DNA of 37,905 nt from Planctomycetota bacterium (lineage in GTDB: Bacteria; Planctomycetota; Phycisphaerae; SM23-33), in NCBI GenBank assembly GCA_026693065.1, contig JAPLNA010000259.1, positions 1-37,905 of the forward strand, written 5' to 3'. The notes beneath the pieces are model-generated. The model was given only the letters and a program-made list of their open reading frames with translations. It did no database searches and was not told the origin of the DNA. Below are positions 23,904 through 28,907 of this stretch, in pieces (the stretch's first letter is position 1; the number at the start of each line of letters is the position of its first letter). A program made the translations under genes and the position numbers.

Positions 23904-23917
23904 CCGACTGACGCCCG
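23904..23917 (+). repeat. Direct repeat copy 1: CCGACTGACGCCCG
   Basis: 13/14 match to 28114-28127, same strand. Confidence 0.6.
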
Positions 23918-24020
23918 TTGAGAAGCCACAGGCTGGCCCTCCGCTTCAGATCGGGGTAGTTGGGCCTGCCGCAGGCAAGACCATCGCACCTCGTTCAGCA
24001 ACCTTGGGCTGGTCGCCGGA

Positions 24021-25742
24021 CTAATGGAAATTGAACGGTAGAACCGCCTCAAGCAGTCCCAACGGGTTTCCGACTTGATTGCAGGCGGCCCTGAGGGCGG
24101 ATACTTGGGTCGCGGCTAGAGGCAATTCCCGTTCCAGCGCGTCCAATTCGGCGGCCAGGTTATCCCACGTGCGTCCCCACCACCGGCCGACAACCCCGAG
24201 GGTCGCCCCGATCAGGCGGACGGTCGGGCCCTGGTCCTGGGCGAAGGCCAATTGCCACGCGTTATCCAATCGCTCGGCTGCCGATACGGAGTCGGTCGGC
24301 CGCAACAACAAGGCTCGGTAGGCTTCAATGAGTTCCCACGGATGCCCCTCGCCGCAATCCCACTGTGCAGCGGTCGCCAGATAGCGTTTCCGGTCGTCGG
24401 GCGTCCCTCTTTTGAGCAGGAATCGCAGGAGGAGATGATGGGCGTATTTGTCCTTGTTGTCGGCATGTGGGGCCAGAGACGCCAGGGCCTGGTCCATCGG
24501 CCCCGTCACCGCCTCCAGACAGGCACGTGCCGATTCCGTCGTACAGTTCTCGTCGTCCATGGCCGCAATCGCCAGGTAGGCGCCTGTCTGTTTCCGCTCG
24601 GCCGCGGCCAGGGCCGGATCGGACAACTCCCCAAAAGCCTCCATTGCCTTGCGAAACCTGGTCTGCGATTCCGCCGCATCGCCCAGAAACGCCGACACTT
24701 GCCCAAGTGAGCTTTGCGCCCTGGCGTACATCTGCAGGCCCGGCACGTATCTTGGCACTTCGGCCCAGCGGCCCAGCGTGGCGGCGGCCCCTGCAAAGTC
24801 AAAGCGATTCATGGCGGCCACCGCCAGGTGCAGATCGACATAACACACCATCGCCGGATCCTCATCGAAGAGACGATCCGAGAGCTGGCGGATATCCGCC
24901 TGCCAGGCCGGCTCGACGGCCCCCCGATGATTGGCGGCCGCCAACTGGCTGGTCAGAAATGCCAGCCGGACCTTCGGGGGCAAGACTTGGCCGGCGGGCT
25001 GGCAGCTTGCCAGCCAGGACAGTTCCCGCCCCAGCACGTCCAGGTCGACGGCCTTGCTTTCCAGATGCTCCCGCGCCGCCGCCAGGTATCCCTGCCACAA
25101 AGTCCCATCGTGCAGGCAGGCCTGGCGGACCTGGTCCAGCAAGGCTGCCGCGACGCTCCCGGGTTCACTGAATTCCCCAGAGGTCACGACGTCTCGCCAC
25201 GGCGCCGGCGCCAACCGGCCTCGCAGGCCCAGAACGTCCCATGCGGATCGTAGGGTTCGGCTGTCGGTATCCATGAGGCAACGGCCCGGAAGCCCGCTCC
25301 GCTTGAGCCGCTCCCGGGATGTGGCAGTCGGACTTCCCCACGAATACGCCACCAGATCGGCGTATCCGATAACGGGGTGTCCCCCTTTGCTGACCGGGTG
25401 AATGGCCATTGCGATCCGGGAAGCCCGGGCCGGGTCAACCTCGGCCAATTGCCGCAGAATCTCGCTTCGGACCGGTTCCCAGTGATGACTGAACGTGGGT
25501 TGGCCTCGGCATTCCAGGAACACATCGATCGACGTGGCCCCGTCCAGCGGCAGTAACCGAAGCACCCAGTGAACCAGTTCGATGACCCCGGCCGTCCACC
25601 GGTCGCCAGGGACTGGAGCGAGGCTGTCCACGGTGATTCCGAGAACTCCCGTGCCGCTGTCCAGCAGCGACTGCAGGGCTTTGTCCACCTTGTCGGCGGA
25701 ACTCACATCCACGCAGTGAAAGCCCGTCCCCATGTCCGACAA
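24021..25742 (-). CDS. TPR-like helical-repeat protein with RNase-H-like (DUF3800-reminiscent) N-terminal region; TTG start or ATG at 25733
   Basis: 573-aa frame; N-terminal GVLGITVDSLAP...SIDVFLECRGQ...RIAMAIHPVSKGGHPVIGYADLVAYSWGS; C-terminal TPR-like LQMYARAQSSLGQVSAFLGDAAESQTRFRKAMEAFGEL. Confidence 0.7.
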   Translation of the reverse strand: MSDMGTGFHCVDVSSADKVDKALQSLLDSGTGVLGITVDSLAPVPGDRWTAGVIELVHWVLRLLPLDGATSIDVFLECRGQPTFSHHWEPVRSEILRQLAEVDPARASRIAMAIHPVSKGGHPVIGYADLVAYSWGSPTATSRERLKRSGLPGRCLMDTDSRTLRSAWDVLGLRGRLAPAPWRDVVTSGEFSEPGSVAAALLDQVRQACLHDGTLWQGYLAAAREHLESKAVDLDVLGRELSWLASCQPAGQVLPPKVRLAFLTSQLAAANHRGAVEPAWQADIRQLSDRLFDEDPAMVCYVDLHLAVAAMNRFDFAGAAATLGRWAEVPRYVPGLQMYARAQSSLGQVSAFLGDAAESQTRFRKAMEAFGELSDPALAAAERKQTGAYLAIAAMDDENCTTESARACLEAVTGPMDQALASLAPHADNKDKYAHHLLLRFLLKRGTPDDRKRYLATAAQWDCGEGHPWELIEAYRALLLRPTDSVSAAERLDNAWQLAFAQDQGPTVRLIGATLGVVGRWWGRTWDNLAAELDALERELPLAATQVSALRAACNQVGNPLGLLEAVLPFNFH

Positions 25743-25766
25743 CGCCTCGATGAGGATTGGCGGATC

Positions 25767-25970
25767 GTGATCGATTTGAAGGCTGGGGATGGCGGGACTC
25801 TATCGGTCGAGTCCGTGCGGGTCGGGCTCCTGCCGGCCCCCCAGAACCCCGATTACCCCGGGCGATGGGTCCTGGACCTGGCTGACTACGCTCCCAGCCT
25901 ACGCCTGCGGACCCTCGATGAGGCGGTGGTTGTCCAGTTCCACGACGGGCCGAGGGTGAAACTACTGTGA
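25767..25970 (+). CDS. Small (67 aa) uncharacterised beta-rich protein, GTG start
   Basis: IDLKAGDGGTLSVESVRVGLLPAPQNPDYPGRWVLDLADYAPSLRLRTLDEAVVVQFHDGPRVKLL; stop overlaps the next GTG start (GTGA at 25967-25970), suggesting translational coupling. Confidence 0.5.
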   Translation: MIDLKAGDGGTLSVESVRVGLLPAPQNPDYPGRWVLDLADYAPSLRLRTLDEAVVVQFHDGPRVKLL

Positions 25971-27859
25971 GTGTTGCTGCCGGTTCAACTTCTGATCCCT
26001 GCGATACCGGCGCGTGCCAGTGGAAGGGAATCGGGACGCATGCTCCGCCCCAGCCCTGCTGGGGGTGGTTGGGACAACTGTCGATCGAGGCCTTCGCCAG
26101 GAACGGCGCATCGTCGATCGAGCCCCGTTGGATTCAGGGCGCGTATGCGTGGCTCTACGGGCGCCTGGAAGGGGACCGCCTGTCCGGCCTACCCAAACCG
26201 ATCGCCCCTCCGCTGTCCCCACCGGCGAACGGCTGCCCGTTGCTGCTGGCCGACGCCGGCGGCGCAGGGCTCATCGGTTGGGCCAGCGTCGATTTCCTGA
26301 ACTATCCTCATGCTCCCGGCGACACAGAATCCCTCCGGGCCGCCCAGAACGCCTCATCCTTCGTTTGCGACTGGTTTCGTCAATTGGATCTCCGGGACGC
26401 CTGGCCGTTCATCACGTTCCGTTCATGTCGGGAATTCGACGGCGCCAGCACCGCCCTGGCGGTCTTTGCCCTCACCCTTGCCCGCAAAGCCGGGCTCCCT
26501 CTGCCCGAAGACGTGTGCGCCACGGGCTGCTGGGATCTGCAGCGGTCATGCCTGGCCCCCGTTGCGGCTGAAACGTTGGCCGCCAAACTCCGCAAGGCTG
26601 CCGACTGGGGTTATCGGCGGATCCTGCTGGTGGAGGGACAGGCCGGTTGGCAGGAAATGCCCGGTTTGACGCCGATCTACCTTCCAGCGGCTCCGGCATA
26701 CGCGGCCCTGCACATTCTTTCGCACGTGCTGGGGAACGTGGGCGACGAAATCGCCGCGGGAATCCTGGCAGTCTTTGATCAGGCGGCGGTGTGGAATCCG
26801 CAGACCCCCATCGGTGTGGACCAGGTCTGCCGCGCGACCGAGCCCTTCATCGAGTCCAGGGGCCTCGTTCTTTCGCGCCACATGGCCCACGACATGCGTT
26901 CGCGGGCGATGCTGCACGCGGGGCGTACCGCTCAGGCCGCCCGGGAAGCAACCTGTGCTTCCCAGGCCCTACCGGAGGTCCTGCCGGAAGGTTGGCTCGG
27001 CGACTACCTGATCTGGCACGAGCCGGCCCACCGCGCCGTGATTGCCATTGATCAGGGACGCTGGCAGGACGATGAGGCGGAGCATGCAACGGTCGACCGT
27101 CGCATCGCTCGCCTGGAATCCGAGACGCCGCGGCGAAGCATCCTGCTGGCCGGCGTTCGGCTGCACAACACCCGCGGGAGGCGATACGAATATCTGGGGC
27201 GACTCAATGAAGACTCGGGTTTACTGAGGAAGTCCTGGGACGACCGCCTGCGGTTTCGCGAGTCCTGGCCGACGATCGACGAGTATGCCAGCCGCCTGGG
27301 CTTGCGCGATGGTGGGATCCGGCGTCAGCACAACCAGTGTATCGATGTTCTCACCAGTTATTGGATGGTGGAACGAAGGCTTCCGGCCGATTGGGGTTTT
27401 GATGCGATCGGGCTCTGGCCGGAACCACTTGACCGACCGCAACGGAACTGGTCCATGTTCGATCTCGCTGCTTTTCTGAAATGGAAAGCAATCGCTGCCC
27501 AGCCTCCCGACGACGTGGTTCTGGAAGAAGTGCTGTTGGCCACGGAGGACGCCGCCGCAAGATTCGCCGGGCGGTATCCGTCGTACGTGCCATTCGAAGT
27601 GATCCTTCAGTTGGATCTGGGCGATGAGTCGCTCCGGAAGAGAGCGGCGATCAACCTTGTCAGGTCGGTCCTCTTCAGTTCTGATCTGCCCGCTGACAGT
27701 ATTCTAGCCGTGACGGCAATTCGAGCCGAGAATCTGGCGAGCAAGTACCTCGATCGTATGCCACGCCCCATACGCCCTCGATGCGGCACTGTATTGAGCG
27801 ACCTTGCACAGGAGTTGCTGGCCAGGCCTGAGAGAATCGCGAGTCGTTGTCCGTATTGA
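25967..27859 (+). CDS. 630-aa protein with diverged Lon/S16-like Ser-Lys protease domain and helical C-terminus
   Basis: FDGASTALAVFALTLARKAGLPLPEDVCATGCWDLQ...LAPVAAETLAAKLRKAADWGYRRILLVEGQ aligns by eye with the Lon pattern GPSAGx..ALLSALTGRPV..DLAMTGELTLxG.VLPIGGLKEKLLAARRAGI..VIFPEEN. Putative Ser161 (26447-26449) and Lys207 (26585-26587). Confidence 0.7.
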   Translation: MSVAAGSTSDPCDTGACQWKGIGTHAPPQPCWGWLGQLSIEAFARNGASSIEPRWIQGAYAWLYGRLEGDRLSGLPKPIAPPLSPPANGCPLLLADAGGAGLIGWASVDFLNYPHAPGDTESLRAAQNASSFVCDWFRQLDLRDAWPFITFRSCREFDGASTALAVFALTLARKAGLPLPEDVCATGCWDLQRSCLAPVAAETLAAKLRKAADWGYRRILLVEGQAGWQEMPGLTPIYLPAAPAYAALHILSHVLGNVGDEIAAGILAVFDQAAVWNPQTPIGVDQVCRATEPFIESRGLVLSRHMAHDMRSRAMLHAGRTAQAAREATCASQALPEVLPEGWLGDYLIWHEPAHRAVIAIDQGRWQDDEAEHATVDRRIARLESETPRRSILLAGVRLHNTRGRRYEYLGRLNEDSGLLRKSWDDRLRFRESWPTIDEYASRLGLRDGGIRRQHNQCIDVLTSYWMVERRLPADWGFDAIGLWPEPLDRPQRNWSMFDLAAFLKWKAIAAQPPDDVVLEEVLLATEDAAARFAGRYPSYVPFEVILQLDLGDESLRKRAAINLVRSVLFSSDLPADSILAVTAIRAENLASKYLDRMPRPIRPRCGTVLSDLAQELLARPERIASRCPY

Positions 27860-28113
27860 CACGTACCACGACACCCGGCCTTGGCTATCATCGCGATATG
27901 ACGCCTGCATTTTGGACATTTCCTGGCCGAAGCCGACATTCGCCCTTCTGCCGCCCGTTTGTGTCAATGCCGGCATGAAGCAGTGGCCATGTGAAGAGGG
28001 GTATTCTCAGACGTCCATTCGGGAAGATGTGTTCTCCGGAACGTCCCCGCATTCCCCGATCGGGCAGAGAACCGGCTTTCCGTCACATATGCAAGAATGT
28101 AAAAGAGATTGCG

Positions 28114-28139
28114 CCGACTGACGTCCGGACTGACGCCTG
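28114..28139 (+). repeat. Tandem 12-bp-period repeat pair containing direct repeat copy 2 (CCGACTGACGTCCG + GACTGACGCCTG)
   Basis: Direct reading of sequence. Confidence 0.6.
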
Positions 28140-28266: not shown

Positions 28267-28312
28267 TACACCCGAGAGGACTCGAACCTCTAACCCTCGG
28301 TTCCGAAGACCG
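28267..28312 (-). tRNA. Partial tRNA-Arg (anticodon TCG): 3' portion only (anticodon arm, variable loop, T arm, 3' acceptor strand)
   Basis: Minus strand CGGT-CTTCGGA-ACCG, GAGGGTT, AGAGG-TTCGAGT-CCTCT, CGGGTGT-A. No D arm and no 5' acceptor (ACACCCG) found upstream. Confidence 0.75.
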
Positions 28313-28338
28313 CCGTATATAGCACACAACCGCATACG

Positions 28339-28907
28339 TTACCGTGCCTTATGAGTGTGGTTATTCAGACTGACGCCCGGGTTGACGCCCGCCAAGGAGC
28401 CCCGATTGCGGTAGCGCTCCAGCAATTCCCACGCCGAGCGGGTCCGGGCCGACCAGTTGGTCACCGGGAAGAAGTGGCGGGGGAACAGTTCCCGGAGGCC
28501 CGTCTTGGCATCCGACAGGTCGACCACCAGCACCATCCGGTACGACCGGGTCCAACTCTCGGCCCGGTAGTAGTCTCTCAGGTCCACGGCGAACTTGGCG
28601 CCCTCCTTCGTCGGTCGCCCCGGAGCGCGTGATAGGTATGGCCGGGCCAGCACGTCCGGCATGGCGTTGTTCTCGATCCGACCGACGAAGCTCACAAACT
28701 CCTCGTCGACGGTATCCATTGCAGGGCCCTCGACTAGGCCAGCGTCGATTCGGACGTCCAGATGCGTGGCCAACGCCCGGGCCTTCCGGATGGTCTCCCG
28801 CGTGAATCTCGCCATTTCTTCGGGCCTGCCCGCGTTGCCCCGCCGGAGGGTCGCATGGATGAACTCTTCGCCCAGGCGAGAGGACTCGTGGCTGTCAGAT
28901 GCCCCAT
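28339..28907 (-). pseudogene. Hypothetical protein; apparent frameshift just after the start codon (track ORF begins internally at 28815)
   Basis: SD GGGAGG (28915-28920) and ATG at 28907. Adding one G to the G4 run (28902-28905) yields MGASDSHESSRLGEEFIHATLRRGNAGRPEEMARFTRETIRKARALATHLDVRI..., in frame with the 158-aa ORF. Confidence 0.55.
28368..28391 (+). repeat. 12-bp-period repeat pair (GACTGACGCCCGG / GTTGACGCCCG)
   Basis: TGACGCCCG at 28371 and 28383; same motif as at 23904 and 28114. Confidence 0.55.

Follow-up and report, generated by a model that had tools for sequence, protein, structure and literature searches.

The locus and its protease

We analysed a window of 37,905 bp that represents the complete contig JAPLNA010000259.1 (C259) of a planctomycete draft genome (G000; 441 contigs, 93% complete, 3.6% contamination). 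The element under study is an intact gene for a protein of 630 amino acids (aa), here called S16-TPR, together with a short frame immediately upstream on the same strand and a divergent frame of 573 aa (Table 1). A sequence-only reading of this DNA had described a self-contained divergent module made of the 573-aa protein, a 67-aa protein (25767-25970, plus strand) and the 630-aa protein with an S16-like Ser-Lys domain, bounded by direct repeats, and had suspected an unnamed conflict or defence system. The three open reading frames and the 4-bp GTGA overlap of the second with the third were found as described, and the S16 domain of the 630-aa protein was borne out by every approach listed for it in Table 1.

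Table 1. Features of the S16-TPR locus and its flanks, in window coordinates
Feature	Position	Strand	Basis
S16-TPR protease, intact, 630 aa	25967..27859	+	PADLOC, PDB profile, AlphaFold, Foldseek, invariant residues
Partner B, 5'-truncated, C-terminal domain only	25716..25970	+	B-family profile match; invariant Trp
573-aa frame, 5'-truncated gene, C-terminal half of larger protein	24021..25742	-	alignment to G060:C89
Truncation junction, homologies of the two divergent frames head to head	25730..25734	.	homology limits of both frames
Flanking repeat, left copy CCGACTGACGCCCG	23904..23917	+	motif search
Flanking repeat, right copies CCGACTGACGTCCG then CGGACTGACGCCTG	28114..28139	+	further copy 28366-28379
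tRNA-like sequence, degraded	28267..28339	-	RF00005 28.4 bits vs cut-off 29, model 1-71 of 71
IS1380-family transposase fragment, truncated at both ends	28339..28815	-	NF033539 7.6e-11 (positions 190-333 of 419); PF13701 4.4e-6

The 630-aa protein matched the PADLOC CARF_LON profile (1.3e-6) through residues 154-223, which aligned only to profile positions 123-187 of 408. A PDB search with the single sequence returned the Lon proteolytic domain 1xhk (E 0.013) and nothing else, and a profile of the S16-TPR family retrieved the same structure at 1.5e-9, followed by other Lon domains. Five residues, the catalytic Ser161 and Lys207 with Thr186, Gly187 and Gly215, were invariant across 13 aligned proteins that shared 17-31% identity with that of the window. 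The AlphaFold model (predicted local distance difference test score, pLDDT, 81.8; predicted template modelling score, pTM, 0.80) consisted of a disordered stretch (residues 1-27), a mixed α/β S16 domain from about residue 89 to 240, and TPR-like helices from residue 243 to 627, with no AAA+ domain. When this model was compared with the PDB by Foldseek, the best matches were Lon proteolytic domains (1z0w, E 3.3e-4, template modelling score on the target 0.70), with the Lon-like domains of RadA and BrxL also matched and TPR proteins following. Pfam and NCBIfam gave no match to the protein, AAA+ included, and PADLOC, Pfam and Foldseek gave no match to SAVED or CARF. All full-length TPR-type members end in Pro-Tyr, mostly as Arg-Cys-Pro-Tyr (A8 alignment), which is also the C-terminus of the window protein. 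Taken together, the alignments and the model show that the protein joins a genuine Lon/S16-type protease domain to TPR-like helices, and S16-TPR is an undescribed family of ATPase-less Lon-type proteases.

Known proteases of this kind resemble S16-TPR in part. LonA and LonB have the S16 domain with its Ser-Lys dyad in common with the window protein, from which their AAA+ domain is absent. CARF-Lon (PADLOC PDLC01981, CARF_m2--CARF_LON) likewise has an ATPase-less Lon-type S16 domain, but the window protein has TPR-like helices where CARF would be. In CalpL, the protease of the type III SAVED-Lon system CalpL-CalpT-CalpS, a SAVED domain binds cA4 (cyclic tetra-adenylate), whereas no SAVED domain was found in the window protein, and CalpL was not among the PDB profile matches of the S16-TPR family up to E 10. 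S16-TPR failed the defining tests of CARF-Lon, CalpL, Lon and TPR-CHAT (no CARF, no SAVED, no AAA+, and S16 instead of CHAT). It fits best among the ATPase-less Lon-type signalling proteases as a distinct form, and the suspicion that the system matches no named one was upheld.

Truncated neighbours and the junction between them

The small frame upstream of the protease gene belongs to a protein of about 300 aa, here called partner B, whose gene lies directly upstream of the protease gene in 11 of the 11 other TPR-type loci. A profile of 12 B homologues from outside the window, one of which (from the G577 locus described below) was taken in by position and not by proven homology, was compared with 304 window frames and recovered the small frame at 2.5e-10, with the next frame at 0.29. 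This match was limited to profile positions 227-298 of 306, the C-terminal domain. If started at the GTG at 25716 the small frame is 84 aa long, with the 67-aa start at 25767 lying inside it, and the invariant Trp of the B family (the only one in the alignment) is encoded upstream of that start. Since homology to partner B already begins at about 25734, the 67-aa start was not upheld. A small partner directly upstream of the protease is real, but it is a fragment of the ~300-aa partner B and not a separate 67-aa protein.

The divergent 573-aa frame is a fragment as well. Its residues 5-572 aligned at 42% identity with the C-terminal part of a protein of 1195 aa from genome G060 (contig C89), in which the first 400 residues form a CARF4 domain and a PD-(D/E)XK nuclease (PADLOC CARF4-PDDEXK, 1.1e-25), and two more homologues of 1173-1247 aa likewise extend upstream. 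By these alignments the 573-aa protein is the C-terminal half of a larger protein, with the CARF-nuclease fusion seen in one relative, G060; the missing N-terminus was not found in the upstream minus-strand frames of the window. The 1195-aa protein itself (L056, 14441-18028) seems to be a type III ancillary nuclease in an unusual fused form.

The RNase-H-like N-terminus and TPR-like C-terminus earlier ascribed to the 573-aa protein fared poorly. For the former there was no Pfam match and no profile match to DUF3800, and a DUF3800/RNase-H identity was dropped at an hhalign probability of 0.06% (4 sequences per side, low power); for the latter, the Pfam match was weak (PF13424, E 0.043, below cut-off). 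The TPR-DUF3800 accessory proteins of Cas12a2 and VI-F loci (PMC10910872, PMC12669027) resemble it as helical-repeat proteins of CRISPR loci that may contain a nuclease-like domain, but the profile comparison found no homology between DUF3800 and the 573-aa protein. By eye, the strand "RWRLLLDETGERF" in the longer G060 homologue is DUF3800-like.

The two truncated frames are joined head to head. For the 573-aa protein, homology begins at residue 5 (about 25730), and for the small frame at about 25734, which leaves about 4 bp between them, and no promoter-like site was found between the divergent frames. What had been read as two divergent starts about 24 bp apart is, because the homologies abut here, a truncation junction or an assembly chimera, and a divergent promoter was ruled out on the same grounds. 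Nor does the description of a self-contained module hold, as both the 573-aa and the 67-aa frames are fragments and the gene for a further partner, A, is missing from the window.

It could still be argued that the 573-aa and 67-aa proteins and the protease act together as found, as one small divergent cassette for conflict. In favour of this, each of the three frames is open, the GTGA overlap ties the small frame to the protease start, and in G060 a homologue of the 573-aa protein and an S16-TPR gene share one contig; however, the 5' parts of the aligned full-length homologues are absent from both divergent frames, which start with TTG and GTG. Among the other genomes, G060 was also the only one with the 573-aa homologue on the protease contig, about 13 kb off. 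We also listed against the cassette a chance of 0.05 for at least one shared genome of the 573-aa and S16-TPR families among the other 391 genomes. In our judgement such a cassette is very unlikely.

A deletion or rearrangement is the simplest account of two 5'-truncated genes meeting head to head, and the window locus looks like a remnant. As partner A and most of partner B are missing, the window copy of the pathway is probably non-functional although the protease gene is whole. An unlikely alternative for the truncation, which would leave the family untouched, is that two loci of the same or of different organisms were wrongly joined at about 25,732 during assembly. The fragmentation and contamination of the draft genome are in keeping with this, as is the fact that both frames are cut at the same point; on the other hand, G+C is alike on the two sides of the junction (0.648 and 0.638), and the transposase remnant, repeats and degraded tRNA in the locus suggest a genuine rearrangement.

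As noted earlier by sequence inspection, the outer repeats (23904-23917 and 28114-28127) are near-identical, at 13 of 14 positions. With up to 2 mismatches allowed, the flanking motif had 9 matches in the window against 2.4 expected, a count that 0 of 100 shuffles reached. All 3 window copies of GACTGACGCC lie at the module flanks, and about 200 kb of other G000 contigs contained 1 copy. Motifs of the GACTGACGCC type, at 23904, 28114, 28126 and 28366, lie at both module borders and beside an end of the truncated IS1380 transposase fragment. The adjacent tRNA fragment previously reported was confirmed as a tRNA-like sequence, but the match is full-length and degraded and lies below the RF00005 cut-off; ARAGORN called none.

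The operon in relatives and its CRISPR neighbours

A sample of 392 genomes from across the phylum contained 6 with full-length S16-TPR relatives. Further carriers from the same class as the window were G929, G947, G953 and G1054, and one carrier fell outside it, a metagenome-assembled genome of the Planctomycetia (JAUNBK010000126.1; locus L004, genome G392). Matches in G045 and G570 were not counted as family members. No other sampled genome of the family to which the window belongs had an S16-TPR match, so that the distribution is patchy.

The gene order around S16-TPR is regular. In addition to partner B, whose presence in every other locus agrees with the suggestion that a small partner gene accompanies the protease, a gene for partner A (319-415 aa) lay upstream of B in 10 of the 10 loci whose contig reaches far enough, and a gene for partner C (~200 aa) lay between A and B in 6 loci. 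The order of the intact operon is A - (C) - B - S16-TPR, with C optional. Partner A is a helical protein and partner B consists of an N-terminal region and a small C-terminal domain; the B and S16-TPR genes overlap or abut in locus L017 and in the window. The A-family profile recovered left-out members from L016 (2.2e-17), L004 (1.5e-14) and L017 (8e-4), and the C-family profile recovered the left-out L004 member at 3.7e-19. No partner protein tested had a PADLOC match.

In L004 the protease gene is followed, after 39 bp and on the same strand, by a cas13d gene (PADLOC 7.6e-205). Both RxxxxH motifs are visible in its translation, the contig ends about 165 bp after the gene, and no CRISPR repeats were found in L004. 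A second Cas13d is encoded on another contig of this genome together with Cas1, Cas2 and CRISPR arrays, from which we concluded that G392 has a type VI-D system. In that type VI-D locus (L079, 1714-10300; G392:C45), Cas13d, Cas1 and Cas2 lie between two CRISPR arrays that share one repeat and run in opposite orientations. No Cas13d was found in the window genome, G000.

Both S16-TPR modules of G060 are on contigs with cas genes, but at a distance of several kb. Contig C70 encodes a Cas7-like repeat-associated mysterious protein (RAMP; 9.6e-34), and C89 encodes Cas1, a fusion of a reverse transcriptase with a primase-polymerase (RT-PrimPol) and the CARF-nuclease that is homologous at its C-terminus to the 573-aa protein of the window. 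The RT-PrimPol (1052 aa; L056, 9424-12582) joins a reverse transcriptase to an archaeo-eukaryotic primase-polymerase and adjoins Cas1. In addition to its pair of S16-TPR operons, the small G060 genome (2.3 Mb) has four matches to Cas1 and RAMP genes of type III.

None of the papers found in the literature that we searched connects Cas13d with a Lon protease. In the 2025 CRISPR classification, Lon is mentioned solely among type III effectors, and the accessory genes named for type VI include WYL and csx27 (PMC12669027).

Proposed mechanism and comparison with known systems

We propose, at a probability of roughly 0.55, that the window holds an intact S16-TPR gene with truncated neighbours head to head, that elsewhere the gene belongs to the operon A-(C)-B-S16-TPR, and that in this operon a signal-activated protease cleaves B and frees A. 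Partner B would bind and restrain A until a signal reaching the TPR region switched on the Ser161/Lys207 protease; the activated S16-TPR would then cleave B, and the freed A would act, probably at the level of transcription. Recognition of target RNA by the Cas13d of the same operon may supply the signal in at least one lineage.

The S16 fold with its catalytic residues, the operon, the Cas13d adjacency in one genome and the truncation of both flanking frames in the window are shown by the data. Protease activity, and with it the roles given to B as substrate, A as released effector and the TPR region as the receiver of the signal, are proposed by analogy with two known systems; a function in defence is likewise putative. 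In CalpL-CalpT-CalpS, the Lon protease cleaves an anti-sigma factor (PMC11417357). The likeness lies in a Lon-family protease encoded with two partner genes and in a putative inhibitor-cleavage logic; the difference is that CalpS is a sigma factor, whereas partner A is missing from the window and its sigma identity is not established elsewhere. In the type III-E Craspase (Cas7-11, TPR-CHAT Csx29, Csx30, Csx31 and CASP-sigma), a TPR-fused protease cleaves Csx30, an inhibitor of a sigma factor, and is accompanied by several small partners and by an RNA-guided RNase made of a single protein, as S16-TPR is in part (PMC10028731). S16-TPR differs in that its protease domain is Lon/S16 and not CHAT/caspase, and in that the RNA-guided enzyme is Cas13d and occurs at one locus only. 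We consider it decidedly improbable that S16-TPR operons are a signalling-protease module coupled to Cas13d in at least some lineages; the Lon-type protease would then be RNA-guided and RNA-activated, a type VI equivalent of the type III-E Craspase with components of unrelated origin, and the window would be a decayed copy of such a module.

Several observations weigh against the proposed release of A by cleavage of B, or against its link to defence. The adjacency to Cas13d is a single case. Cas1, although present in G060, G037, G288 and G392, was not found in G000 (93% complete), G380 or G338. Five genomes of one family (f8) keep the operon in ordinary conserved chromosomal neighbourhoods without cas genes, which makes a role outside defence possible. 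Partner A is not established as a transcription factor or sigma factor: comparison of the A-family profile with E. coli RpoE/FecI by hhalign was insignificant, and an AlphaFold model of the L004 partner A (pTM 0.50) had no PDB match by Foldseek. Finally, the junction in the window could be an assembly chimera.

The same cas-free neighbourhoods bear on a rival function, in which the operon would be a chromosomal stress-signalling unit and not a defence system, the regulated S16-TPR protease controlling the A/B pair on a cellular signal and the CRISPR neighbours being incidental. This function, which we regard as unlikely, would account for an operon that is syntenic without cas genes in three genomes of one genus (G929, G947, G1054) and again in the pair G953/G380, and for the lack of S16-TPR relatives in plasmid and phage collections and in viral contigs. 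It is at odds with the sparse and scattered carriage of the family across the phylum, with the cas13d gene directly downstream in G392, and with the presence of cas genes on the contigs that carry the two G060 modules. The conflict or defence role first suspected for this locus is plausible, given the Cas13d neighbour in one genome and the cas genes on the contigs of another, but in view of the five cas-free genomes it is not demonstrated.

Switchable signalling enzymes of the ATPase-less Lon type have been described chiefly among the SAVED-Lon and CARF-Lon proteins of type III CRISPR systems. If true, our proposal for the S16-TPR family would extend protease-based signalling to a new type of sensor, with TPR in place of a cyclic-nucleotide sensor, and perhaps to CRISPR systems of type VI as well. 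The small size of the partners allows their expression, and the cleavage hypothesis is open to direct test.

On first reading, partner A was taken for an extracytoplasmic function (ECF) sigma factor in L004, L017 and L076, and this identity held for L076, the G577 locus. Weak sigma matches (NCBIfam, E 0.0019) were seen in one member of the A family, that of G338, and in no other. The upstream protein of G577, for which 22 of 22 NCBIfam matches were sigma factors, was not recovered by the A-family profile. A frame in G577 with the motif "HVxxHV" resembled partner C by eye and was not counted as such, as the C-family profile did not recover it. The protease at this locus (L076, 8530-13808) matched the CARF-Lon profile at 4e-65 over positions 35-406; it has the S16 domain in common with the window protein yet belongs to a different and known kind, that of bona fide CARF-Lon. 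Its gene is followed 22 bp downstream by Cas6, and the contig also carries the ECF-type sigma factor upstream, Cas1, Cas2 and a CRISPR array. The G577 locus is a natural comparison for CalpL-type signalling.

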